Made by a program: the position numbers and the translations under genes. This document shows positions 4,578 to 21,626 of a DNA stretch of 32,140 bases, in pieces. Under the pieces are notes generated by a model. The model saw only the letters and a program-made list of their open reading frames with translations, did not search any database and had not been told where the DNA came from. Positions within the stretch are counted from its first letter, which is position 1, and every line of letters starts with the position of its first letter. Source of the stretch: an uncultured Eubacteriales bacterium (GTDB lineage Bacteria > Bacillota > Clostridia > Christensenellales > Aristaeellaceae); the NCBI GenBank assembly GCA_902790495.1, contig CADASK010000019.1, positions 1-32,140 of the forward strand. The letters run 5' to 3'.

Positions 4578-4581
4578 CATG
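4564..4581. promoter_or_regulatory. Candidate ArgR/AhrC operator overlapping the argG -10
   Basis: The minus strand reads CATGAATA at 4581-4574, identical to one half of the Bacillus ARG box (CATGAATAAAAATKCAAK). The second half is imperfect (TACAGCAT). A looser CATAAAT-like site lies at about 4519-4540. Binding here would block polymerase, as expected for arginine repression of a biosynthetic gene. No argR gene is in the window, so this is inference. Confidence 0.35.
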
Positions 4582-4614
4582 CACGTACCCCAAACACAAC
4601 GGAGGCGTAAAGCT

Positions 4615-5832
<1,218 letters not shown>

Positions 5833-6124: not shown

Positions 6125-6874
6125 ATGATGAAGAAGATCGTTGCTATCCTGTGCGCCATGATGCTCACCCTGACCGCCGTGAGCGCCTTCGCCGCCGATT
6201 TCACCACCATCGAGGCCGGCAAGCTCACCATGTCCACCAGCCCCGACTTCCCGCCCTTTGAGAACACCGACGACGACGGCAACATCATCGGCATCGAGCC
6301 CGACCTGATCGCCCTGATCTGCGAGAAGCTCGGCCTGGAGCCCAACTGGCTGGCCATGGACTTCGACTCCGCCCTGCTCGCCCCGCAGACCGGCAAGGCT
6401 GACGCCGTGGTCTCCGGCGTGACCGTCCGCGAGGACCGCAAGACCCAGTTCGACTTCACCACCAGCTACGTGAGCATCCATCAGGCCATCGTCTGCAAGG
6501 AAGACAAGGACATCACCATGGACAACCTCGGTGAGCAGACCATCGGCGTGCAGAACGGCACCACCGGCCAGATCTACGCCGTGGACGACTTCGGCGAGGA
6601 CAACGTGGTGGCCTACAACACCTACTCCGTGGCCTTCCTGGCCCTGACCAACGACCAGGTGGACTGCATCGTGGTGGACGACCTGGTGGGCAAGGCCTAC
6701 GCCGCCACTATCCCCGGCCTGAAGGTTGTGGAGACCACCTATGAGGCGGAGGAGTTCGCCTTCGGCGTGAGCAAGGGCAACACTGCTCTGGTGGAGGCCA
6801 TCAATGAGGTGCTGGAAGGGCTGATCGCCGACGGCACCGTTGAGGAGATCATCCTCAAGCACTCGATGAACTGA
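6125..6874 (+). CDS. Polar amino-acid ABC transporter substrate-binding protein (possibly arginine)
   Basis: Extracellular binding protein (SBP_bac_3 family) of a polar amino-acid importer, 249 residues. The signal peptide MMKKIVAILCAMML ends in SAFA-AD and fits signal peptidase I. There is no lipobox cysteine at the cleavage site, which is unusual for a Gram-positive solute receptor. Family segments include STSPDFPPFE, GIEPDLIALI and SGVTVREDRK, the last placing an Arg in the ligand-carboxylate-binding region. AAGGAGG at 6113-6119 supports the start; the ATG at 6128 is equally well spaced. Permease and ATPase genes follow. Arginine specificity is suggested only by neighbouring argG and argF; glutamine, cystine or histidine remain possible. 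Confidence 0.88.
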   Translation: MMKKIVAILCAMMLTLTAVSAFAADFTTIEAGKLTMSTSPDFPPFENTDDDGNIIGIEPDLIALICEKLGLEPNWLAMDFDSALLAPQTGKADAVVSGVTVREDRKTQFDFTTSYVSIHQAIVCKEDKDITMDNLGEQTIGVQNGTTGQIYAVDDFGEDNVVAYNTYSVAFLALTNDQVDCIVVDDLVGKAYAATIPGLKVVETTYEAEEFAFGVSKGNTALVEAINEVLEGLIADGTVEEIILKHSMN

Positions 6875-6892
6875 GGAATGCCCCACCCCCTG

Positions 6893-6916
6893 CCCCTCCC
6901 CGCAAGCGGGGAGGGG
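6893..6916. repeat. Perfect GC-rich palindrome after the binding-protein gene
   Basis: CCCCTCCCCGC-AA-GCGGGGAGGGG, an 11-bp perfect stem 19 nt after the stop codon, without a T-tract. It may stabilise the 3' end of the abundant binding-protein mRNA, or be part of an interspersed repeat. Confidence 0.55.
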
Positions 6917-6933
6917 AGAGGTTCATTGGTCGC

Positions 6934-6968
6934 CCGGGGAAACCTTTCCTCCGGAAAGTTTTCCCCGG
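6934..6968. repeat. Long imperfect hairpin in the binding protein-permease spacer
   Basis: CCGGGGAAA (6934-6942) pairs with TTTCCCCGG (6960-6968) and CTTTCC (6944-6949) with GGAAAG (6953-6958). One mismatch separates them and the loop is TCC. The 15 paired positions make this one of the strongest foldbacks in the window. It lacks a T-tract and looks like a mobile or processing-type palindrome. Confidence 0.55.
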
Positions 6969-7032
6969 ACCCCTTGTAAAGGCGCTCCTGCGGAGGGCTT
7001 CCTATCGTCCTTCCCAAATTCCGGTCATCCCT

Positions 7033-7069
7033 CCCGAAGCGGGCAGCCTATCGCCTACTTCGGGTTTTT
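7033..7069 (+). terminator. Terminator-like stem-loop just before the permease gene
   Basis: CCCGAAG (7033-7039) pairs with CTTCGGG (7058-7064), directly followed by five Ts. It stands 17 nt upstream of the permease ribosome binding site and 160 nt after the binding-protein stop. Partial termination here would give more binding protein than membrane components, a common arrangement in ABC importers. Confidence 0.55.
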
Positions 7070-7099
7070 GAGACAATCCCCTTTCAGGAAGGTGATCAC

Positions 7100-7861
7100 T
7101 TGGAGCAGTACGCGGCTTGGCAAGCCCTGGTCAAGGCCGGAGAGGCCACCAGCTGGCAGAAGTATTATGTCTATTTTTATCAGGCCTTTGTGGACAAGGA
7201 TCGGTGGATGCAGTACCTCAACGGTGTGCTGACCACCCTCTACGTCACGGCCCTGGCCCTGCTGATCGGCGTCATCCTGGGCGTCATCGTGGCCGTGGTG
7301 CGCACCGCCCACGACCAGCAGCGCCCCGGCAAGCGCAGCCCGGTGCTGGGCTTCTTCAACGCCATCCTCAAGGTCTACGTCACGGTCATCCGCGGCACGC
7401 CCATGATGGTGCAGCTGATGATCATGGGCTTCGTCATCTTCGCCTCCAGCCGGGATTTCGCCCTGGTCGGCGCCCTGACCCTGGGCATCAACTCCGGCGC
7501 CTACACCTCGGAGATCATCCGCGGCGGCCTGATGAGCGTGGACGCGGGGCAGATGGAGGCCGGGCGTTCCCTGGGTCTGAACTACACGGACACCATGCGC
7601 TTCATCATCGTGCCCCAGGCCATCAAGGCCATCCTGCCCTCGCTGGGCAACGAGTTCATCGTGCTGCTGAAGGACACCTCCCTCATCAGCGTCATCGGCG
7701 GCAAGGAGCTGATTTACGCGGCCCGCGCCATCGTCAGCCGCACCTACGAGGCCCTCTTCCCCTACCTGGGCACAGCCTTGATCTATCTGGTGCTGGTGAT
7801 GCTCTTTACCTGGCTGCTGGGGATCTTTGAGAGGAGGCTGCGCGCCAGTGATCTACGTTAA
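7100..7861 (+). CDS. Polar amino-acid ABC transporter permease (GlnP/HisM type)
   Basis: Inner-membrane channel subunit of the amino-acid importer, 253 residues, HisMQ family. The start is TTG at 7100, supported by AGGAAGG at 7086-7092. Several membrane segments are visible, first at about residues 45-70 ([21 protein letters not shown]). The EAA loop that docks on the ATPase is present ([18 protein letters not shown], then [14 protein letters not shown]). The IRGTPMMVQ segment is typical of the family. A hydrophilic 40-residue N-terminal lead precedes helix 1. The 3' end overlaps the ATPase gene by 14 nt, so the two are translationally coupled. Confidence 0.92.
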
Positions 7862-8570
7862 CAACCTGTGCAAGCGCTTCGGCAAGCTGCAGGTGCTGGA
7901 CAACATCTCCGAGCACATCCAGAAGGGCGAGTGCCTGGTGCTCATCGGTCCCTCCGGCTCCGGCAAGTCCACCTTCCTGCGCTGCCTGAACCTGCTGGAG
8001 GAGCCGACCTCCGGCGAAATCCTCTTCGACAACGTGAAGCTGACCGACCCGAACACGGACATCAACAAGATGCGCCAGCGGATGGGCATGGTGTTCCAGC
8101 ACTTCAACCTCTTCCCCAACATGACCATCCTGAAGAACCTGACTCTCGCGCCGATCCGCACCGGCCTGCGGAGCAGGGAGGAGGCCGAGAAGAAGGCCCT
8201 CGAGCTCCTGCGCCGCGTCGGCCTGGAGGACAAGGCCAACGCCTACCCGGCCCAGCTCTCCGGCGGCCAGAAGCAGCGCGTGGCCATCGTGCGCGCCCTG
8301 TGCATGGAGCCCGAGGTGATGCTCTTCGACGAGCCGACCTCCGCCCTGGACCCCGAGATGGTCGGCGAGGTGCTGGACGTGATGAAGACCCTGGCCCGCG
8401 ACGGTATGACCATGGTGGTGGTGACCCACGAGATGGGCTTTGCCCGCGAGGTCGGCACCCGGGTGCTCTTCCTGGACGAGGGCAGGATCCAGGCCAGCGG
8501 CACCCCGGACGAGATTTTCAACCACCCCCAGAACGAGCGCCTCAAGAGCTTCCTGGCCAAGGTGCTGTGA
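7848..8570 (+). CDS. Polar amino-acid ABC transporter ATP-binding protein (GlnQ type)
   Basis: Cytoplasmic ATPase driving the importer, 240 residues. I use the GTG at 7848, with AGGAGG at 7832-7837, giving the family-typical [12 protein letters not shown]. The in-frame TTG at 7827 would add seven atypical residues. Walker [10 protein letters not shown] lies at residues 34-42, with the ABC signature [11 protein letters not shown], Walker [15 protein letters not shown] and the switch histidine in VVTHEMGFA. Spacing and sequence match GlnQ/ArtP-type subunits. Last gene of the transporter operon; a T-run hairpin at 8694-8720 probably ends the transcript. Confidence 0.95.
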
Positions 8571-8693: not shown

Positions 8694-8720
8694 GAAGGAT
8701 GACGCAGCTCATCCTTCTTT
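8694..8720 (+). terminator. Rho-independent terminator of the ABC transporter operon
   Basis: GAAGGATGA (8694-8702) and TCATCCTTC (8709-8717) form a 9-bp stem with a 6-nt loop, followed by TTTG. The T-tract is short, but the stem is perfect and placed between two transcription units. Confidence 0.6.
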
Positions 8721-8733
8721 GCGTGAAGAAGGA

Positions 8734-8862
8734 AAGCCTTCCCCCTCCGGGGGAAGGTGGCCGAGCGCAGCGAGGCCGGATGAGGGGCTGCCGCCAGTCT
8801 CGCACATATACCCTCATCAGTCAGCCTTTCGGCTGACAGCTTCCCCCAGAGGGGGAAGCCTT
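8734..8862. mobile_element. MITE-like inverted-repeat element upstream of argF
   Basis: A 129-bp non-coding element with near-identical inverted ends (AAGCCTTCCCCCTC and GAGGGGGAAGCCTT) and inner inverted arms GATGAGGG (8779-8786) / CCCTCATC (8811-8818). Local hairpins are CCTTCCCCC/GGGGGAAGG (8737-8757), GTCAGCC/GGCTGAC (8820-8837) and CTTCCCCC/GGGGGAAG (8840-8858). It has no ORF. Similar CCCTCATC-GTCAGCC-CTTCCCCC elements are, as I recall, abundant in gut Clostridia genomes; I could not search to confirm this. It ends 34 nt before the argF start codon. Confidence 0.6.
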
Positions 8863-8895
8863 ATCATCCACCCCACCCCCGAAAGGAGCAAGCTT

Positions 8896-9894
8896 ATGTC
8901 CCTGTACAAGCGCAGTTTTCTGACCCTGCTGGATTTCACGCCCGAGGAGATCACCAGCCTCATCGACCTGGCGTCGCGCCTCAAGGCCGAGAAGAAGGCC
9001 GGCACGCCCCACCGCCTGTGCGCGGGCAAAAACGTGGCCCTCATCTTTGAGAAGACGAGCACCCGCACCCGCTGCGCCTTCGAGGTGGCGGCGGCGGACC
9101 TGGGCATGCATCCGGTCTACCTCGACCCCACGGGCTCCCAGATCGGCAAGAAGGAATCCATCGCCGACACCGCCCGGGTGCTGGGCCGCATGTTCGACGG
9201 CATCGAGTACCGCGGCTACGACCAGGAGATCGTGGAGGCCCTGGCGGAGAAGAGCGGCGTGCCCGTGTGGAACGGCCTGACCAACGAGTACCACCCGACC
9301 CAGGTGCTGGCCGACTGCATGACCATCCGCGAGCACTTCGGCCAACTGAAGGGCATCAAGCTGGTCTATCTCGGGGACGCGCGCTACAACATGGGCAACA
9401 GCCTGATGATCGGCTGCGCAAAGCTGGGCATGCACTTCGTGGCCTGCGCCCCGAAGGCCTACTTCCCGGACGGCGCGCTGGTGGAGAAGTGCCGGGCCAT
9501 CGCGGCCGAAACCGGCGCGACGCTGGACTTCATCGAGGATCCGCTGCAGGCCGTGCAGGGCGCGGACGTGCTCTACACGGACGTGTGGGTCTCCATGGGT
9601 GAGCCGGACGCGGTGTGGCAGGAGCGCATCGCCGCCCTGACGCCCTACCGCGTGACCGCCGAGCTGATGGCCGCCGCCGGCAGCACGGCCGTGTTCATGC
9701 ACTGCCTGCCCTCCTTCCACGACCTGAACACCGTCATCGGGAAGGACATCTACGCCCGCTTCGGCATCGACTGCATGGAGGTGACCGACGAGGTCTTCGA
9801 GGGCCCCCAGTCCATCGTCTTCGACGAGGCTGAAAACCGGATGCACACCATCAAGGCCGTGATGGCGGCGACGCTGTGTGAAGGGCTTCTGTAA
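8896..9894 (+). CDS. argF: Ornithine carbamoyltransferase
   Basis: Catabolic or anabolic transcarbamylase that converts ornithine and carbamoyl phosphate to citrulline; 332 residues, normal for the family. STRTR at residues 55-59 binds carbamoyl phosphate, HPTQ-type and DARYNMGNS segments are present, and HCLP at 269-272 carries the catalytic cysteine and the ornithine-site residues. I start it at ATG 8896 after AAAGGAGC. Longer in-frame starts run back through the MITE-like element and are not credible. With argG upstream and carAB downstream, an anabolic role is favoured; no arcA or arcC is seen. The ribosome binding site is only a few bases beyond the MITE-like element, whose hairpins could affect its expression. 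Confidence 0.96.
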
Positions 9895-10623: not shown

Positions 10624-11688
10624 ATGGCTTATCTGGTCCTATCCAACGGCATGACCTTCGAGGGGCGGCGCATCGGCGCGCCCGGCTCCGCCATCGGCGA
10701 GCTGGTCTTCACCACCGGCATGGTGGGCTACCTCGAAACCCTGACCGATCCCTCCTACGCGGGGCAGATCGTGCTGCAGACCTTTCCGCTCATCGGCAAC
10801 TACGGGGTGATCCCGGAGGACTTTGAGGGCAAGCCCGCCCTGCGGGGCTACGTCGTGCGCGAGCTGTGCGGCGAGCCCAGCAACTTCCGCAGCGAGGGCG
10901 CGCTGGACGGCTGGCTCAAATCGCGCGGCATCCCCGGCATCGCGGGCATCGACACCCGCGAGGTGACCCGCGTCATCCGCGAGGAGGGCGTGATGAACGC
11001 CGTGATCTGCGACGAGCTTCCCGCCGACCTGGCGCCGGTGAAGGCCTACACCGTGCGCGGCGCGGTGGCCGAGGTCAGCCGCAAGGCCGCCCAGGTCTAT
11101 CCCGCCGAGGGCGCGCCCGCCTTCCGCGTGACCCTGATCGACTACGGCGCGAAGCAGAACATCATCCGCTCCCTGTGCGCCCGCGGCTGCGAGGTGACCG
11201 CCGTGCCCCACGACACCCCCGCCGAGGCCATCCTTGCCGGACATCCGGACGGCGTGATGCTCTCCAACGGCCCCGGCGACCCCGCGGAAAACACGGCCTG
11301 CATCGCCGAGCTGCGCAAGCTCATCGGCCAGGTGCCCGTGTTCGGCATCTGCCTCGGCCACCAGCTGGCCGCTCTGGCCATGGGCGGCCAGACCATGAAG
11401 CTCAAGTACGGCCACCGCGGCGCGAACCAGCCCGTGAAGGAGACCGCCGGCGCCCGCACCTTCATCACCAGCCAGAACCACGGCTACGCGGTGGTGGCGG
11501 ACAGCCTGAAGGGCATCGGCGTGGAGACCTTCGTCAACGCCAACGACGGCAGCTGCGAGGGCATGACCTACCCGGGCAAGCGCTGCTTCACCGTCCAGTT
11601 TCACCCGGAGGCCTGCGCGGGCCCCCGCGACACCGGTTTTCTCTTCGACCGCTTCATGCGCATGATGGGAGGTGAGGAGCTTGCCTAA
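10624..11688 (+). CDS. carA: Carbamoyl-phosphate synthase small (glutaminase) subunit
   Basis: Class I glutamine amidotransferase that releases ammonia from glutamine and channels it to CarB; 354 residues, normal length. The N-terminal CarA domain (LVLSNGMTFEG, GYLETLTDPSYAGQI) is followed by the amidotransferase domain. Nucleophile Cys243 lies in FGICLGHQ, and His327 and Glu329 in FHPEA complete the triad. TGGAG stands about 10 nt upstream. The stop codon overlaps the carB start by 8 nt. Product supplies carbamoyl phosphate to both arginine (ArgF here) and pyrimidine synthesis; no pyr genes are seen, so an arginine-linked copy is plausible. Confidence 0.96.
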   Translation: MAYLVLSNGMTFEGRRIGAPGSAIGELVFTTGMVGYLETLTDPSYAGQIVLQTFPLIGNYGVIPEDFEGKPALRGYVVRELCGEPSNFRSEGALDGWLKSRGIPGIAGIDTREVTRVIREEGVMNAVICDELPADLAPVKAYTVRGAVAEVSRKAAQVYPAEGAPAFRVTLIDYGAKQNIIRSLCARGCEVTAVPHDTPAEAILAGHPDGVMLSNGPGDPAENTACIAELRKLIGQVPVFGICLGHQLAALAMGGQTMKLKYGHRGANQPVKETAGARTFITSQNHGYAVVADSLKGIGVETFVNANDGSCEGMTYPGKRCFTVQFHPEACAGPRDTGFLFDRFMRMMGGEELA

Positions 11689-14600
11689 GGATTCATCCAT
11701 CCGGAAGGTGCTGGTCATCGGCTCCGGCCCCATCGTCATCGGCCAGGCCGCCGAGTTCGACTACGCCGGCGCCCAGGCCTGCCGCGTGCTGCGGGACGAG
11801 GGCATCAACGTCGTCCTGGTCAACTCCAACCCCGCCACCATCATGACCGACAAGCACCTGGCGGACGAGATCTACCTGGAGCCCCTCAACGCGGAGACCG
11901 TGCGCCGCATCATCGAGAAGGAGCGGCCCGACGGCCTGCTGGCGGGATTGGGCGGACAGACCGCCCTGACCATCGCCATGCAGCTGAGCCGGGACGGCAC
12001 CCTCGCCCGCTACGGCGTGCGGCTGCTGGGCTCGGATATCGGCGCGATCGAGAAGGCCGAGGACCGCGAGCAGTTCCGCGACACCATGCTGAGGATCGGC
12101 GAGCCCTGCGTGCCCTCCGAGATCGCGGAGACCCTCGAGGACGCCGTGCGCGCGGCCCGGGACATCGGCTACCCGGTCATCGTGCGCCCGGCCTACACCC
12201 TCGGCGGCTCCGGCGGCGGCATCGCCCAGGACGAGCAGGAATTCAGAACCATCGCCGCGGGCGGCCTGGACGCCTCGCCCATCCACCAGATCCTGGTGGA
12301 GAAGTGCATCGCGGGCTGGAAGGAGATCGAGTTCGAGACCATGCGGGACAGCGCGGGCAACGTCATCGCGGTCTGCTCCATGGAAAACGTCGATCCCGTG
12401 GGCGTCCACACCGGCGACTCGGTGGTGGTGGCCCCGGCCCTGACCCTCTCGGACAAGGAATACCAGATGCTGCGCTCGGCCTCCCTGCGGATGATCGAGG
12501 CCATCGGCATCGTGGGCGGCTGCAACTGCCAGTTCGCCCTCAACCCCGATTCGTTTGAATACGCGGTGATCGAGGTCAACCCCCGCGTGTCCCGCTCCTC
12601 GGCCCTGGCCTCCAAGGCCACCGGCTACCCCATCGCGAAGATCACCACCCGCATCGCCCTGGGCTACACCCTGGACGAGATCCCCAACGACATCACCGGC
12701 AAGACCTGCGCCTGCTTCGAGCCGACGCTGGACTACGTGGTGGTGAAGTTCCCCAAGTGGCCCTTCGACAAGTTCGCCGGCTCCTCCCGCCGCCTGGGCA
12801 CCCAGATGAAGGCCACCGGCGAGGTGATGGCCATCGGCCAGAGCTTCGAGGCCGCGCTGATGAAGGCCGTGCGCGGGGCGGAGATCTCCCTGGAGACCCT
12901 GAACGCCGCGCCTCTGAGCGACGCTCCCGTGGAGGAGCGCCTGCGCGAGCAGAACGACCGGCGGCTCTTCACCGTGTTCGAGGCCCTGAAGAAGGGCGTC
13001 TCCGTGGACGACATCTTCGATGTCACGAAGATCGACCGGCTCTTCCTGCGCGCCCTGAAGCGCCTGGCGGACTTTGAGCAGAGCCTCGCCGCCGGCCTCA
13101 CGCCCGACAAGCTGCGGGAGGCCCGCCGCCTGGGCTACACGGCCTCCGCCCTGAAGCACCTGACCGGCGAGGACGTGCCGGAGATGGCCTGGAGCTACAA
13201 GATGGTGGACACCTGCGGCGCGGAGTTCGACGCCCAGACGCCCTACTTCTACTCCTGCGCGGACGAGGTCTGCGAGGCGCGGGCCTTCCCGCGCTCCGGC
13301 AAGCCCGTGGTGATGGTGCTGGGCTCCGGCCCGATCCGCATCGGCCAGGGCATCGAGTTCGACTATTCCTCGGTGCACTGCGTGTGGACCCTGCGCCAGC
13401 TGGGCTACGACGTGGTCATCGTCAACAACAACCCGGAGACCGTCTCCACCGACTACGACACCGCCGACCGCCTCTACTTTGAGCCCCTGTGCCCGGAGGA
13501 CGTGATGTCCATCATCCGGGTGGAAAAGCCCATCGGCGTGGTGGTGGCCTTCGGCGGACAGACGGCCATCAAGCTGACCCAGTACCTGGACCGCCACGGC
13601 ATCCCCATCCTGGGCACCTCGGCGGATTCCATCGACGTGGCGGAGGACCGCAGCCGCTTCGACGCCCTGCTGGAGCGCTTCGGCATCCGCCGCCCCAAGG
13701 GCTTCTCCGCCACCAGCGTGGAGGAGGCCCTGCACGCGGCGGCCACCCTCGGCTACCCGGTGCTGCTGCGCCCGTCCTACGTCATCGGCGGCCAGAACAT
13801 GACCATCGTGCGGGACGAGGGGCAGACCGTCGCCTACATGGAGCGCATCCTGGCCGGCGGTATCGAGAACCCGGTGCTGGTGGACAAGTACATGCCCGGC
13901 GTGGAGCTGGAGGTGGACGTCATCTCCGACGGCACCGACGTGCTGATCCCCGGCATCATGGAGCACGTGGAGCGCGCGGGCGTCCACTCGGGCGACTCCA
14001 TCGCGGTCTATCCGCCCTGGAACCTGAACGACCCCTTCCTGCACAAGGTCTGCGACTGCTCCGAGAAGCTGGCCCTCGCCCTGGGCACCCAGGGCCTGGT
14101 CAACATCCAGTACCTGATCTACCAGGACGAGCTGTACGTCATCGAGGTGAACCCCCGCGCCAGCCGCACCGTGCCCTACATCAGCAAGGTGACGGGCGTG
14201 CCGATGGTGGACCTGGCCTCCCAGGTGATGCTGGGCACCCCCCTGCGCGACCTCGGCTACGGCACGGGGCTGTACCGCACGCCGCCCTACGTGGCGGTGA
14301 AGGTGCCGGTCTTCTCCTTTGAGAAGCTGACCGACGCCAACTCCATCCTCGGCCCGGAGATGAAGTCCACCGGCGAGGTGCTGGGCATCGGCAAGACCAT
14401 GGCGGAGGCCCTGTTCAAGGGCCTGAGCGCCGCGGGCTTCAAGGTGCCGCGCAGGCACGCCGGCGCGGGCGTGCTGATCTCCGTGGAGGACAGCGACTAC
14501 CAGGAGATTCTCTCCCTGGCCAAGCGCTTCCACGACCTGGACATCCGCCTCTACGCCACCAGCGGCACCGCGGCCACCATCGCCCAGATGGGCCTGGACG

Positions 14601-15712
14601 TCACCGCCGTGCCCAACCTGACCGAGGACGACACCCTGATCCGCCTGATGGAGGGCGGCGCCTTCTCCTACATCATCTACACCGGCGCGGTGAAGGACGC
14701 CTCCGTGGGCGATTTCACCGTGCTGCACCGCCGCGCCATGCAGCTGGGCATCCCCTGTCTCACCTCCACCGACACCGCCGGGGCCCTGGCCGAGATCATC
14801 GAGAGCGGCTTCACCCTGGACAACACGGAGCTGGTGGACATCTGCGCGATGCGGCCCTGGCGGCAGCGCATCCACTTCGCGAAGATGCAGTCCTGCGGCA
14901 ACGACTACATCTTTGTGGAGAACTTTGACAATCAGATCACCTGCCCGGAGAGCCTGTGCGTGAGCCTGTGCCGCGAGCACTACGGCATCGGCGGCGATGG
15001 CATCGTGCTGATGGAGCACTCCGCGGTGGCCGACGCCCGCATGCGCACCTTCAACCGCGACGGCAGCGAGGGCCGCATGGCCGGCAACAACATCCGCTGC
15101 GTGGCGAAATACCTCTACGACAAGGGCTATGTCCACGCCGGCCACATGAGCCTGGAGACCATGAGCGGCGTGAAGCACCTGAAGCTCTACCTGCGCGACG
15201 GCAAGGTCTCCTCGGTGACGGTGGACATGGGCGAGGTGTCCCTGGATCCCCAGCGCCTGCCTGCCCTGACGGAGGCCGAGCGGCTGGTCGACACCCCGCT
15301 GACCCTGGACGGGGAAGGCGGCGAAACCTACCGCGTGACCTGCGTGGACGTGGGCAACCCCCACTGCGTGGTGTTCATGGACGGCATCGACGGCCTCGAC
15401 CTGGAGGAGCTGGGCCCGCGGTTTGAGTACGCGCCCATGTTCCCGGAGCGCATCAACACCGAGTTTGTGCGCGTGGTGAACCCCACCACCCTGCGCATGC
15501 GCGTGTGGGAGCGCGGCAGCGGCGAGACCATGGCCTGCGGCACGGGCGCGTGCGCGGCGGTGGTGGCGGCCTGCGAGCTGGGGCTGTGCCCGAAGAACAC
15601 GGACATCACGGTGAAGCTGCTGGGCGGCGACCTGACCGTGCGGTATGACGGCCGGCGGGTGATGCTCACCGGCAGCGCGGTGATGGTGTTTGAAGGGGAA
15701 TTTGTGTACTGA
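11681..15712 (+). CDS. carB: Carbamoyl-phosphate synthase large subunit fused to a diaminopimelate-epimerase-like domain
   Basis: Single uninterrupted 1343-residue frame. Residues 1-1062 are a full CarB: two homologous ATP-grasp halves (GSGPIVIGQAAEFDYAG near residue 14 and GSGPIRIGQGIEFDYSS near 548; VNPRVSRSSA and VNPRASRTVP) and a C-terminal MGS-like regulatory domain from about 930. Without a linker, residues 1064-1343 match DapF (HFAKMQSCGNDYIFVEN onward). The fusion joins carbamoyl-phosphate synthesis to a lysine/peptidoglycan-type epimerase domain. I prefer the TTG at 11681, with GGAGG eight bases upstream and the family-typical MPK start, over the GTG at 11672. The DapF part lacks one catalytic cysteine, as described in its own entry. 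CarB function looks intact. Confidence 0.93.
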   Translation: MPKDSSIRKVLVIGSGPIVIGQAAEFDYAGAQACRVLRDEGINVVLVNSNPATIMTDKHLADEIYLEPLNAETVRRIIEKERPDGLLAGLGGQTALTIAMQLSRDGTLARYGVRLLGSDIGAIEKAEDREQFRDTMLRIGEPCVPSEIAETLEDAVRAARDIGYPVIVRPAYTLGGSGGGIAQDEQEFRTIAAGGLDASPIHQILVEKCIAGWKEIEFETMRDSAGNVIAVCSMENVDPVGVHTGDSVVVAPALTLSDKEYQMLRSASLRMIEAIGIVGGCNCQFALNPDSFEYAVIEVNPRVSRSSALASKATGYPIAKITTRIALGYTLDEIPNDITGKTCACFEPTLDYVVVKFPKWPFDKFAGSSRRLGTQMKATGEVMAIGQSFEAALMKAVRGAEISLETLNAAPLSDAPVEERLREQNDRRLFTVFEALKKGVSVDDIFDVTKIDRLFLRALKRLADFEQSLAAGLTPDKLREARRLGYTASALKHLTGEDVPEMAWSYKMVDTCGAEFDAQTPYFYSCADEVCEARAFPRSGKPVVMVLGSGPIRIGQGIEFDYSSVHCVWTLRQLGYDVVIVNNNPETVSTDYDTADRLYFEPLCPEDVMSIIRVEKPIGVVVAFGGQTAIKLTQYLDRHGIPILGTSADSIDVAEDRSRFDALLERFGIRRPKGFSATSVEEALHAAATLGYPVLLRPSYVIGGQNMTIVRDEGQTVAYMERILAGGIENPVLVDKYMPGVELEVDVISDGTDVLIPGIMEHVERAGVHSGDSIAVYPPWNLNDPFLHKVCDCSEKLALALGTQGLVNIQYLIYQDELYVIEVNPRASRTVPYISKVTGVPMVDLASQVMLGTPLRDLGYGTGLYRTPPYVAVKVPVFSFEKLTDANSILGPEMKSTGEVLGIGKTMAEALFKGLSAAGFKVPRRHAGAGVLISVEDSDYQEILSLAKRFHDLDIRLYATSGTAATIAQMGLDVTAVPNLTEDDTLIRLMEGGAFSYIIYTGAVKDASVGDFTVLHRRAMQLGIPCLTSTDTAGALAEIIESGFTLDNTELVDICAMRPWRQRIHFAKMQSCGNDYIFVENFDNQITCPESLCVSLCREHYGIGGDGIVLMEHSAVADARMRTFNRDGSEGRMAGNNIRCVAKYLYDKGYVHAGHMSLETMSGVKHLKLYLRDGKVSSVTVDMGEVSLDPQRLPALTEAERLVDTPLTLDGEGGETYRVTCVDVGNPHCVVFMDGIDGLDLEELGPRFEYAPMFPERINTEFVRVVNPTTLRMRVWERGSGETMACGTGACAAVVAACELGLCPKNTDITVKLLGGDLTVRYDGRRVMLTGSAVMVFEGEFVY
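14870..15709 (+). other. dapF: DapF-like domain of the CarB fusion, one active-site Cys replaced
   Basis: About 280 residues, the normal size of a whole diaminopimelate epimerase, which interconverts LL- and meso-diaminopimelate with two cysteines acting as base and acid. The second cysteine is present (Cys1286, in ACGTGACA). The first motif, normally NxDGSxxxxCGNGxR, reads NRDGSEGRMAGNNIR: the catalytic Cys is Ala1134 and the following Gly is Asn. DGIVL, VDVGNPHCVVF and RVWERGSGET segments are conserved. A two-base racemisation by the usual mechanism is not expected. It may use another residue, act on another substrate, or be a structural or regulatory domain. Codon use and GC resemble the CarB part. 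Confidence 0.88.
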
Positions 15713-18230: not shown

Positions 18231-18329
18231 TAAGAACATATGAAAGGCATTATCGGATAGAAGGATTTTCCTATTCTTTATCGAAAAATGTTTTCATACA
18301 GATTTCCTACAGAATAGAGGCTAATGACA

Positions 18330-21300
18330 ATGACCGATCTGGAGACAAAGATTTATCAGGCAGTTGCCAGTGGAAATGGACCCAAAGGCGTAGAGATAGC
18401 AAGTTTAATCGGCGCTGAAAAGCAGCTTGTCAATTCAACTCTTGCACACAGCGATACCCTGAAAGCGCATATTGTACAAGATAGAAATTATCGCTGGTGG
18501 TTGCGAAATAAAGATGCTCAAAGCACATCATCGCAAGGGAATAGCACAGTTGCAGCTGCAGACTCCGATCTTAGGAATCTATGCAATTATTACTTGAACT
18601 GTATCGCTTTAGAATCGAGCAGTTCTGTTTCTCAGTTTTTGACCGGTCATTATGGACTAAACTATGCACTGTTACATGGTCTTGAATTGAATCCAGAAAG
18701 GGACGAAGACGCCATACAGTTTCTAAAAAAAGTCAGTACTGATAAGAATAAAACTGTATATTTGGGCTACCCTGTACGTGTATTCACCATTTGGGGAAAG
18801 TATAATACCCCTTACAAAAAAATCGCACCTGTTTTCATGTTCTCTATCAACTACCATGGAGGGCAGGCTGAAATTGCATCCATTCCAACCATCAATATGG
18901 AAGTCATCAGAGCCTTTACACAACCAAGTACAGAGGCTCTGGTAAACGAGCTTATCAGCTTGGAAAACGAGTTGGGTCTTGATGCAGAAGATGTGGAAAT
19001 TGAAAAGGATGAATTAGCTCTACGGCTCGCCGAAATCCGCAGTTGGGATTATAAGGAAAGAATTGACCCATATCATATTCCGTCAACCTATTTTGATGCC
19101 TCCACAGAGGATGGTATCTATAACAGAGCCATTGTGATAGAGACAGAACGTAAGACCTATACACAGGGCTTGGAATCAGAGCTTATGGTCTTATCCAATA
19201 TGCCAGCAAGCAGCTACAGGGGAACAGCTCTTTATTCTTGGATTAAAGGTGAACACACAGCAGTATCAGGAGATAGCATCAAGCCTCTGCTTGAAGTGCT
19301 GCCGCTCAACTTGGAGCAGGCAGATGCAGTCAACACGGCACTGCGCTCTGATTTGACTATTATTACAGGTCCCCCCGGGACAGGCAAGTCTCAGGTAGTA
19401 ACCGATTTATTGATAAACATCATCTGGAATGGAAAGAGCGCTTTATTCTCAAGTAAAAACAACAAGGCTGTGGATGTGGTCGATGCACGAGTCAATGGCC
19501 TATGCAAACGACCAGTACTTTTAAGAATCGGTTCAAATCAATACGCAAGTAGACTTGCCGAAATCATAGAAGGGTTATTGAACTCTCGCCCAAACAAACA
19601 AGATATTGCCGATGCCGAGTTTTATCTGAAGGAGTATAAGCGCAAATCCAAGGAAATAGACAAGATAGCAGAAGAGAAGAAAGCAACGATGGCCGCAAGG
19701 AACCATCTTGATGATATTGAACAGGAATACTGCGTCGTCAGAGATCGTGTTGGAAAATGGATGAAAACCAGCGAACTGCCTGCAGAAGGGGAGATTCTGC
19801 AGGCAGCAAAGAACTATGACAAGGCGCATGAAGCGGCAACCAGAGAGAAGCAAAGTTTCTTTATCAAGCTTTTCTGGCCTGCTTTTTCCAAGAAAAGAAA
19901 GGAACTAGAATTCCAGGCCGCGCAAGCATACGATCGTTATGCAAAGAAATATGAAATCATGTCTACAGCTGACACAGTTGCACATAGGGATTCACGCGAG
20001 CTTGTCAAACAGGCTGAAGGCTTTGAAGAAGCGTTAAAGATAGGTCGCTCGTACAAGCAAGCCTTTGATTCACTGAAAAACACCAAGCCAATGGAACAGT
20101 CCGATGGACTGTTAATGACCAACAAGCAGGAGACCGCGAGCATTGCCCAAAAGCTTTGGGGCAAATGGCTTGTTTCACAGGTTCTACCTTTTTCTGCGAA
20201 TGATCGCGAAGAAATGACTGCTTTTGTGACAGCCATGAAACTAACTGGAAATGTTGATTTATCAGAACAACCGGAGCTGAGAAAGAAATACTCAAAAATG
20301 ACCCAGCAGATGACAAAGTATCTGAAATGTTGGGCTGTTACTTCTTTGTCAGCGAAAAACCGTATTCCTTTTGAAGCCGGTTATTTCGACTATCTCATTA
20401 TTGATGAGGCAAGTCAATGCGATATTGCATCAATTCTGCCATTATTGTACCGCGCTAAAAGAGCTGTCATTATTGGCGATCCAAAGCAATTGAGTCACAT
20501 ATCACAGCTTTCGAGAAAGCAGGACCTTGCACTGCTGAATCGCTATCATATTGAGCCAAACTGGTCATATTCTACAAACTCTCTGTATGCTTTAGCATCG
20601 GGAAAAGTGGCGGTTGATCAGATTGTCCAGCTTAAAGACCATTTCCGATGCTGTGCGGATATTATTGAATTCTCAAACGAAGAATTCTATGATGGCTCCC
20701 TACGAACTGCAACAAAGTATTCAGGGCTAAAAACACCTCCGGGAGAAAAGCCCGGCATTCGATGGATTGATATAGACGGGCAAACAGTCAGACCGACAAG
20801 TGGAAGCGCTTATAATCTAAAAGAAGCCGAGGCTGTTGTCAAAGAACTCAATCGATTGGTTTCCATCGGGTATCAAGGAACGATAGGTGTAGTCACTCCA
20901 TTCACACGACAAGCGGCGTTAATCAGAGAAATCCTTGAAAAGCAGGAAAACAAGCTAACCTATGAAAAACTCCTGCTCCATCATGAATTCATAGCGGACA
21001 CAGTTCATAAGTTCCAAGGCGACGAAAGAGATTTGATGATTTTCTCATCTGTCGTGTCTCATGGAGCCGCTGACTCAACACTAGGATATCTTTCAAGTCA
21101 AGGAAATCTGTTTAATGTAGCCATCACCCGAGCACGTGCCGTCTTGGTCGTTATAGGCAATCATCAATATTGTTCCCAGTCATCGGTCTCATACTTAAGA
21201 GATTTTGCAGAATACTGCAAAAAGCTATCTTTTGATACTCCGGAGATTCGATCAATACAGCAGATTGCAGAGAGCCGAGAATACCCATGGGTTGCAAATC

Positions 21301-21626
21301 CTGAACAAGTATCTGATTGGGAAAGAGTCTTCTATACCGCTCTCTATGATGCAGGGATTCAGACCATCCCGCAATACTCCGTAGAAAAATACAAGCTTGA
21401 TTTGGCTGTCATTCTCGATAACACTCGGAAGCTTGACATCGAAATAGATGGAGAAATGTACCATAAGCAGTGGAACGGTGAACTCTGTTATCGCGATCAG
21501 CTGCGAAATCAGCGCATGTTTGAACTTGGTTGGGACGTGAAACGCTTTTGGGTATACCAAATTCGTGATGATATGGACTGGTGCATTGGTCAGATCAAGC
21601 AATGGATGGCAGATCATGCAAGTTAG
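18330..21626 (+). CDS. Superfamily-1 (UPF1-like) helicase with C-terminal DUF559/Vsr-like nuclease domain; candidate defence gene
   Basis: 1098-residue protein. Residues 1-60 look like a winged-helix domain. The SF1 helicase core follows: Q-motif-like LNLEQADAVNTAL, Walker A GPPGTGKS (347-354), DEAS (692-695), GDPKQL (716-721), HKFQGDERD, and NVAITRARA (929-937). A charged, coiled-coil-rich insert of roughly 200 residues (about 410-600) splits motifs I and II. The last 110 residues match DUF559-type PD-(D/E)XK nucleases: Asp1024, Glu1038-Ile-Asp1040 and His1045. The gene is far more AT-rich than its neighbours, indicating horizontal transfer. ATG 18330 is chosen because AGAGG stands nine bases upstream; 18324 is the alternative. 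Helicase-nuclease fusions of this kind are common in anti-phage systems, but I cannot match it to a named one. Confidence 0.88.
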   Translation: MTDLETKIYQAVASGNGPKGVEIASLIGAEKQLVNSTLAHSDTLKAHIVQDRNYRWWLRNKDAQSTSSQGNSTVAAADSDLRNLCNYYLNCIALESSSSVSQFLTGHYGLNYALLHGLELNPERDEDAIQFLKKVSTDKNKTVYLGYPVRVFTIWGKYNTPYKKIAPVFMFSINYHGGQAEIASIPTINMEVIRAFTQPSTEALVNELISLENELGLDAEDVEIEKDELALRLAEIRSWDYKERIDPYHIPSTYFDASTEDGIYNRAIVIETERKTYTQGLESELMVLSNMPASSYRGTALYSWIKGEHTAVSGDSIKPLLEVLPLNLEQADAVNTALRSDLTIITGPPGTGKSQVVTDLLINIIWNGKSALFSSKNNKAVDVVDARVNGLCKRPVLLRIGSNQYASRLAEIIEGLLNSRPNKQDIADAEFYLKEYKRKSKEIDKIAEEKKATMAARNHLDDIEQEYCVVRDRVGKWMKTSELPAEGEILQAAKNYDKAHEAATREKQSFFIKLFWPAFSKKRKELEFQAAQAYDRYAKKYEIMSTADTVAHRDSRELVKQAEGFEEALKIGRSYKQAFDSLKNTKPMEQSDGLLMTNKQETASIAQKLWGKWLVSQVLPFSANDREEMTAFVTAMKLTGNVDLSEQPELRKKYSKMTQQMTKYLKCWAVTSLSAKNRIPFEAGYFDYLIIDEASQCDIASILPLLYRAKRAVIIGDPKQLSHISQLSRKQDLALLNRYHIEPNWSYSTNSLYALASGKVAVDQIVQLKDHFRCCADIIEFSNEEFYDGSLRTATKYSGLKTPPGEKPGIRWIDIDGQTVRPTSGSAYNLKEAEAVVKELNRLVSIGYQGTIGVVTPFTRQAALIREILEKQENKLTYEKLLLHHEFIADTVHKFQGDERDLMIFSSVVSHGAADSTLGYLSSQGNLFNVAITRARAVLVVIGNHQYCSQSSVSYLRDFAEYCKKLSFDTPEIRSIQQIAESREYPWVANPEQVSDWERVFYTALYDAGIQTIPQYSVEKYKLDLAVILDNTRKLDIEIDGEMYHKQWNGELCYRDQLRNQRMFELGWDVKRFWVYQIRDDMDWCIGQIKQWMADHAS

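Follow-up and report, generated by a model that had tools for sequence, protein, structure and literature searches.

Results

Architecture of the fused gene

The stretch analyzed here, positions 1 to 32,140 of contig CADASK010000019.1 from an uncultured Eubacteriales bacterium (assembly GCA_902790495.1; hereafter the window), carries a gene, carB:dapF, in which the large subunit of carbamoyl-phosphate synthase (CarB) is joined to a diaminopimelate (DAP) epimerase (DapF) domain. The frame at 11681-15712 (+), which lies in an enclosing open reading frame (ORF) at 11672-15712, is translated without a stop into one chain of 1343 residues. Residues 2-1042 match the CarB models NF003671 (1420.6 bits) and TIGR01369 (1384.2 bits; cut-off 1027) and are collinear with Escherichia coli CarB, the alignment beginning at residue 1; the full-length equivalog match to TIGR01369, together with the partner gene carA at 10624-11688, identifies this part as a CarB. 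Residues 1064-1341 match TIGR00652 with 265.3 bits (cut-off 114.65), and PF01678 matches the same domain in two stretches.

A preliminary description of this DNA had reported a complete CarB, MGS domain included, that runs uninterrupted into a DapF domain with no stop, linker or frameshift between them. The profile matches and the stop-free frame bear out the uninterrupted run, and the junction reads through in frame without a stop or frameshift, but a short linker does exist: of 135 fused proteins, 134 have one of 12 residues and the remaining one has 11. The fusion is confirmed as real. The window genome is a draft (2.47 Mb, 78 contigs), in which an assembly chimera or a missed stop might be suspected; the stop-free junction rules this out for practical purposes, as does the recurrence of the same architecture as one full-length frame in 22 of 59 relatives, in many families and in Ruminococcus sp. 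FC2018. The separate dapF that the description had proposed to look for is also present: it lies at G000:C44:5016-5843 (-), is intact and adjoins dapL on that contig.

Active site and ligand pocket of the fused domain

DapF catalysis employs two cysteines, and in Corynebacterium glutamicum DapF alanine at either leaves the enzyme nearly inactive, while alanine at each of eight substrate-binding residues nearly abolishes activity (PMC5296763). The window domain has Ala1134 at the place of the first cysteine (Cys73 in Haemophilus influenzae and E. coli numbering; Cys83 in C. glutamicum) and Cys1286 at that of the second, Cys217. It reads MAGNN where DapFs have MCGNG or MCGNA, and it departs from the PROSITE DAP epimerase signature, N-x-(DN)-(GS)-(SENGFT)-x(4)-C-(GI)-N-(GA)-x-R in the form given by PMC8225329, since in its sequence, NRDGSEGRMAGNNIR, A stands in for C and N for (GA). 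All eight binding residues are present (N1074, N1125, N1136, N1226, N1259, E1277, R1278 and T1288, for N15, N74, N85, N159, N194, E212, R213 and T223 of C. glutamicum DapF). The domain, described beforehand as full-length, is so in its fold, but its sequence makes epimerase activity in the window genome very improbable; an ordinary second epimerase is ruled out by the missing Cys73 together with the intact separate dapF.

Both cysteines are present in each of the 34 standalone DapFs that were read, of which 26 come from genomes with a fused gene as well. Among the 97 fused domains from the relatives and the window's own order (the order set), the first cysteine is lost in 61, with Ala (39), Ser (13), Gly (8) or Pro (1) in its place; in locus L176 the residue is Thr. 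Cys217 is present in 55 of these 61, and several fused domains lack it as well. All eight binding residues persist in 41 of the 61 and seven in 10 more, and all eight are found in 15 of 21 Cys73-lost domains of the class set described below. N64, N157, E208, C217, the next Gly and T/S219 are each 90-100% kept among Cys73-lost domains. This supports retention of the pocket, conservation by itself not being proof of binding. Among the most degenerate domains is L270 (genome G664, 99% complete), with three of the eight binding residues and without the second cysteine; L247 likewise has three of eight left.

Distribution and origin of the fusion

The search of relatives took in 60 genomes including the window's own, G000. 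In the 22 of the 59 others noted above the fusion is a single frame of 1342-1395 amino acids, and in G005, G017 and G054 it is found in pieces or at contig ends. Of 297 genomes of the window's order, at least 87 carry it, the window genome among them, in 16 family groups; this count takes in some frames ending at contig ends. A sample of the class (391 genomes) yielded at least 52 fused genes from other orders, and a sample of the phylum (398 genomes; E limit 1e-95) yielded 18 fused frames including the window's, 16 of which come from the same phylum but a different class. Ruminococcus sp. FC2018 (L172) is among the named carriers, and the closest named matches to the MGS-DapF part of the window protein, at 62-67% identity, are L173 (a Clostridia metagenome-assembled genome, MAG), L155 (Candidatus Geddesella stercoravicola, class Clostridia) and L193 (an uncultured Clostridia bacterium). 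The fusion also occurs, with the cysteine lost, in MAGs labeled Spirochaetaceae and Treponema (L194, L201), in whose flanks no match to carA, argF, argG, dapL or the other neighbor queries was found; transfer or mislabeled contigs are possible explanations. In the open-access papers searched we found no description of a CarB-DapF fusion; automatically named protein databases, which lay outside that search, may list the architecture.

All trees were built with FastTree and carry local support values; the CarB tree and the 97-domain DapF tree cover the relatives and the window's order. The CarB tree (105 rows, 94 fused) requires two changes, which we interpret as a single gain and, in the clade of G015 and G045, a single loss. 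The 97 fused domains of the DapF tree group together in one clade (support 94) separate from the 34 standalone DapFs. A wider DapF tree, to which the class set and named loci were added (180 fused, 71 standalone), again requires two changes, one of which is forced by well-supported branches. A single origin of the fusion fits these trees, short of proof. In the clade of G015 and G045 the CarBs stop at the former boundary, with no DapF domain, and in the unfused sister G049 (L045) dapF, dapL, carA and carB lie on the same strand within 10 kb.

Catalytic state and other sources of meso-DAP

The state of the active site tracks the presence of another dapF. In the order set, fused domains with Cys73 number 1 of 56 where the genome has a further dapF match, versus 35 of 41 where it has none; further matches were counted among the matches listed, some may be fragments, and 26 second copies were read. 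For the class set, 40 of the at least 52 fused genes were read, namely every one of the 16 that have a further match and 24 of the 36 that have none, the latter thinned by genus independently of cysteine state; of these, 3 of the 16 and 16 of the 24 keep Cys73, which is the same direction as in the order set. In the combined 137 fused domains the catalytic pair is broken in 85 and intact in 52. A second dapF match or a gene for meso-diaminopimelate dehydrogenase (ddh) is present in the genome for 78 of the 85 broken pairs, and no second dapF for 48 of the 52 intact ones.

Seventeen genomes (8 and 9 in the two sets) have a broken pair, with either cysteine lost, and no second dapF; the search with the DapF model gave one match in each. 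Ten of the 17 encode Ddh, which is listed in place of DapF in one lysine route (PMC9026213). No ddh match was found in the window genome. The CarB tree requires at least five changes of cysteine state, whose direction it does not give. A raw Fisher test of cysteine loss against second dapF (p about 2e-18) ignores relatedness and was not used.

Selection and predicted structure

For the DapF part, dN/dS is 0.02-0.22 in 12 close pairs of Cys73-lost proteins, without correction for relatedness, and 0.02-0.14 in seven Cys73-kept pairs (an eighth has no defined dS); in several pairs dS is near or above 1. The Cys73-lost domains thus stay under purifying selection. These values bear on the idea that the domain is a functionless relic, decaying since dapF became redundant. 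Such decay would account for the tendency of catalytic residues to be gone where another route exists, for the clade without the domain and for the few domains (L270, L247) reduced to three pocket residues, but the closeness of the two dN/dS ranges and the constant length of the linker make it highly improbable, bearing in mind that only open frames were sampled and wrecked copies may be missed.

An AlphaFold2 model of residues 924-1343 (39 sequences) has a mean predicted local distance difference test score (pLDDT) of 87.4 and a predicted template modeling score (pTM) of 0.65; confidence is low in the linker, so that the packing of the MGS-like domain against DapF is not readable from the model. 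Its best matches among solved structures are DapFs, including the C73S mutant 2q9h and the RppH-DapF complex 6d13. The window domain, with a catalytic residue lost, a fold predicted to be kept and purifying selection, shows these features of a putative regulatory pseudoenzyme. More distant structural matches are PhzF and trans-3-hydroxyproline dehydratase, and these, together with the persistence of Cys217 in most Cys73-lost domains of the order set, could be taken to mean that the remaining cysteine catalyzes another reaction, such as racemization, dehydration or isomerization of another amino acid. We regard a new enzyme of this kind as improbable: Cys73 is replaced variously (Ala, Ser, Gly, Pro, Thr) rather than by any single new residue, Cys217 too is gone in several domains, and the DAP-specific residues are present in the window domain.

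The MGS-like domain and the UMP site

In the E. coli synthase, Thr977, Lys993 and Ser948 are named as residues of the uridine monophosphate (UMP) site, and Lys993 is crucial for binding (PMC6245113). Lys993 is kept in 45 of 45 Cys73-kept versus 19 of 82 Cys73-lost proteins, counts that ignore relatedness and leave out 8 of the 135 proteins, in which the start motif was missing. The window has Asn at this place and Tyr at that of Lys954, a putative further UMP-site residue; as Lys954 is not among the residues named above, weight is put on Lys993 instead. The window and most proteins of both classes retain Thr977, and the Ser948 place (Ser or Thr) is mostly kept in both, so the UMP site has not been lost as a whole. 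With Lys993 mostly gone, control of the dead form by pyrimidines seems to have been partly lifted. The ornithine site was uninformative on the domain, the place of E. coli Glu892 being Val in 132 of 135 fused C-termini regardless of Cys73. A second CarB was not found in the window genome, where it may be missing from the draft; several genomes of the window's genus have one, and four frames scanned beside it (L072) included mutS2 and no pyrimidine gene.

Gene neighborhoods and other features of the window

Upstream of the fused gene the window has, in order, argG, an amino-acid-type ATP-binding cassette (ABC) transporter, argF and carA (Table 1).

Table 1. Coordinates of the fused gene, its parts and other features of the window
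Feature	Position	Strand	Evidence or remark
Leucine-rich-repeat protein, BspA type, 345 aa	336..1373	-	
argG, argininosuccinate synthase	4579..5832	+	NF001770 573.7 bits
Amino-acid-type ABC transporter	6125..8570	+	PF00497, PF00528, PF00005
ABC transporter, binding protein	6125..6874	+	
ABC transporter, permease	7100..7861	+	
ABC transporter, ATPase	7827..8570	+	
argF ORF, ornithine carbamoyltransferase, matched residues 65-386	8719..9894	+	TIGR00658 430.8 bits (cut-off 280.85); PF02729, PF00185
carA, small subunit (glutaminase)	10624..11688	+	NF009475 430.4 bits; 8-base overlap with carB:dapF
CarB part, residues 1-1042	11681..14806	+	NF003671, TIGR01369; start TTG at 11681 or GTG at 11672
MGS-like allosteric domain, residues 942-1028	14504..14764	+	PF02142 38.6 bits
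12-residue linker, residues 1054-1065, from D of NTELVD to F of DapF strand 1	14840..14875	+	
DapF-like domain, residues 1064-1341, predicted catalytically dead	14870..15703	+	TIGR00652
Ala1134 codon, place of catalytic Cys73	15080..15082	+	alignments
Cys1286 codon, equivalent of catalytic Cys217, kept	15536..15538	+	alignment
Superfamily 1 (SF1) helicase with C-terminal MTES_1575 nuclease-like domain	18324..21626	+	AAA_11, AAA_12
tRNA and cut 5S rRNA at contig end	31967..32140	-	

Flanks were compared for 69 fused loci (25 relatives, 43 named and the window), of which 67 have a readable cysteine; L166 and L178 were left out as truncated, and L023 and L184 are apparently the same contig. A dapL downstream, on the same strand and within 4 kb, accompanies 7 of 16 Cys73-kept versus none of 51 Cys73-lost loci, and an argF within 4 kb upstream accompanies none of the 16 versus 21 of the 51; these absences are partly blind, 12 of the 69 loci having less than 2 kb upstream and 5 less than 1.5 kb downstream. 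In some loci the intact form is arranged carA - carB:dapF - dapL; in Ruminococcus sp. FC2018, which has both cysteines, dapL begins 24 bases past the fused gene.

One locus of a relative, L017 (G020:C32), has glmS - dapL - pyrG - carA - carB:dapF on one strand and so unites wall-sugar, DAP and pyrimidine genes; its dapL lies upstream, yet Cys73 is lost, which makes proximity of dapL an imperfect marker. Two kinds of argF precede the fused gene, one about 70% (L015, L155, L162) and the other about 40% (L026, L028, L158) identical to the window argF; both are ornithine carbamoyltransferase-like, the second kind as confirmed by model. The candidate pyrB for the low-identity matches was rejected, nine sequences below 45% identity and that of the window all matching ornithine carbamoyltransferase best (L160 is a fragment).

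Elsewhere in the window, the SF1 helicase matches the anti-phage ProA and Hhe models far below their cut-offs, and the tRNA and cut 5S rRNA suggest that the contig stops at an rRNA operon.

Discussion

The explanation that we hold with somewhat more confidence than doubt is that the window protein is a CarB with a C-terminal pseudo-epimerase, kept as a DAP-binding signal module of the synthase. The sampled trees support a single carB-dapF fusion in an ancestor inside the window's phylum. There is strong support for the fused domain having served as the cell's only DapF, and in many genomes it is still the only one found; in some genomes this sole DapF adjoins dapL, and the synthase retains Lys993 of the UMP site. 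The comparison of genomes supports a further step, in which the catalytic cysteine was lost, more than once, where the cell has another source of meso-DAP, a second dapF or ddh. Many of the cysteine-lost genes stand behind argF and carA, most of their synthases lack Lys993, and the window gene is of this form. A bifunctional CarB-DapF would in this way probably have become an arginine-type synthase with a pseudo-epimerase as its DAP-sensing regulator. The domain would have been retained for ligand binding, the ligand most likely being LL- or meso-DAP; the residues that contact the distal carboxylate are intact, which makes DAP itself the likeliest candidate. Its signal would pass through the short linker to the MGS-like domain and on to the synthase, so that carbamoyl-phosphate output would be set by the state of the DAP/lysine branch.

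Several observations weigh against this explanation. The association of cysteine loss with a second dapF has the same direction in the class set as in the order set but is weaker there, and the two or three independent pairs on the CarB tree that link the two, although all concordant, are not significant. In four genomes (G088, G370, G333 and G335) the fused domain has both cysteines although there is a second dapF match, perhaps a recent gain. Among the 17 genomes that have a broken pair but no other dapF, 7 showed no other route to meso-DAP; of these 7, G014, G451, G421 and G686 are 65-88% complete, but G217 (91%), G306 (96%) and G664 (99%) are real exceptions. Conversely, ddh was sought in five genomes whose sole domain is intact and was found in two, G039 and G189, which suggests that ddh permits cysteine loss but does not force it. 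At least one pocket residue is altered in 20 of the 61 Cys73-lost domains of the order set, and conservation of the pocket does not clearly exceed that of other columns near-invariant in standalone DapFs, so that fold stability alone could account for it.

This last point favors the main rival, according to which the dead domain is a structural tail, retained for dimerization or folding of the synthase and carrying no ligand signal. DapFs of several species are dimers (PMC5296763, PMC4227774), and the constant linker and the fold predicted to be intact would also suit such a role. A pure dimer module would have no obvious need of the six positions kept at 90-100%, and the synthases of G015 and G045 do without the domain, a loss that counts against a signal module as well, since it means that the synthase can dispense with it. 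We consider a purely structural role unlikely, while giving it more weight than any other rival.

The signal-module explanation takes up a suggestion of the preliminary description, that the fusion could place a sensor of a DAP- or amino-acid-like ligand on CarB. The suggestion fits the cysteine loss, the kept DAP-binding residues, the fixed linker, the purifying selection and the loss of Lys993; its binding and regulatory part is what we infer. The alternative proposal of a tie between nitrogen use and wall synthesis agrees with the intact carA - carB:dapF - dapL arrangement and the L017 run, but the neighbors in the window are arginine genes. The statement that the two enzymes belong to unrelated pathways was too strong, as dapL adjoins some intact fusions and makes LL-DAP, the substrate of DapF. 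A more far-reaching version, which we put forward tentatively and with more doubt than confidence, is that a wall enzyme was turned into a DAP-sensing allosteric module that replaces the lost UMP control of the MGS-like domain, that arginine and perhaps pyrimidine supply would follow the peptidoglycan/lysine branch, and that the catalytic loss was repeated in independent lineages.

The occurrence of intact and dead forms of one fusion across many families, with an active site whose state tracks the presence of another meso-DAP source, provides a natural experiment in the passage from enzyme to regulatory domain. If the signal-module explanation holds, cell-wall precursor supply and carbamoyl-phosphate synthesis should be directly linked. 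There is also a consequence for annotation: TIGR00652 scores the dead domain far above its cut-off, and dead domains of this kind may be annotated as epimerases although the activity is absent; in other genomes, no DapF besides the fused one was found.

Compared with DapF proper (EC 5.1.1.7, TIGR00652, PF01678), the window domain shares the fold, the length, the eight binding residues and Cys217 but differs in the Ala at Cys73, in its fusion behind CarB, in having no adjacent dapL and in the separate intact dapF of its genome. The window protein shares all CarB domains and the carA directly upstream with E. coli carAB (TIGR01369), but is about 290 residues longer at the C-terminus and has Tyr and Asn at the places of Lys954 and Lys993. 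Human CPS1, also a carbamoyl-phosphate synthetase, retains a catalytically dead domain too, but there this is the glutaminase-like part, unlike the DapF of the window. The effector of CPS1 is N-acetylglutamate, and it acts at the C-terminal part of the protein (PMC4655335). A literature search on fused pseudoenzymes in general yielded nothing specific, and neither did PMC6941894. A precedent in function is E. coli DapF, which binds and stimulates RppH even when both cysteines are missing (PMC4227774), so that a DapF can regulate without catalysis. By analogy the window domain may regulate another enzyme without its catalytic cysteines, but RppH and DapF are separate proteins, whereas in the window the link would be a covalent fusion to a different enzyme. 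PddB, a DapF-like 2,4-diaminobutyrate racemase with a modeled DapF fold, is described as keeping both cysteines while its distal-carboxylate residues are replaced (PMC8225329), a pattern opposite to that of the window domain.

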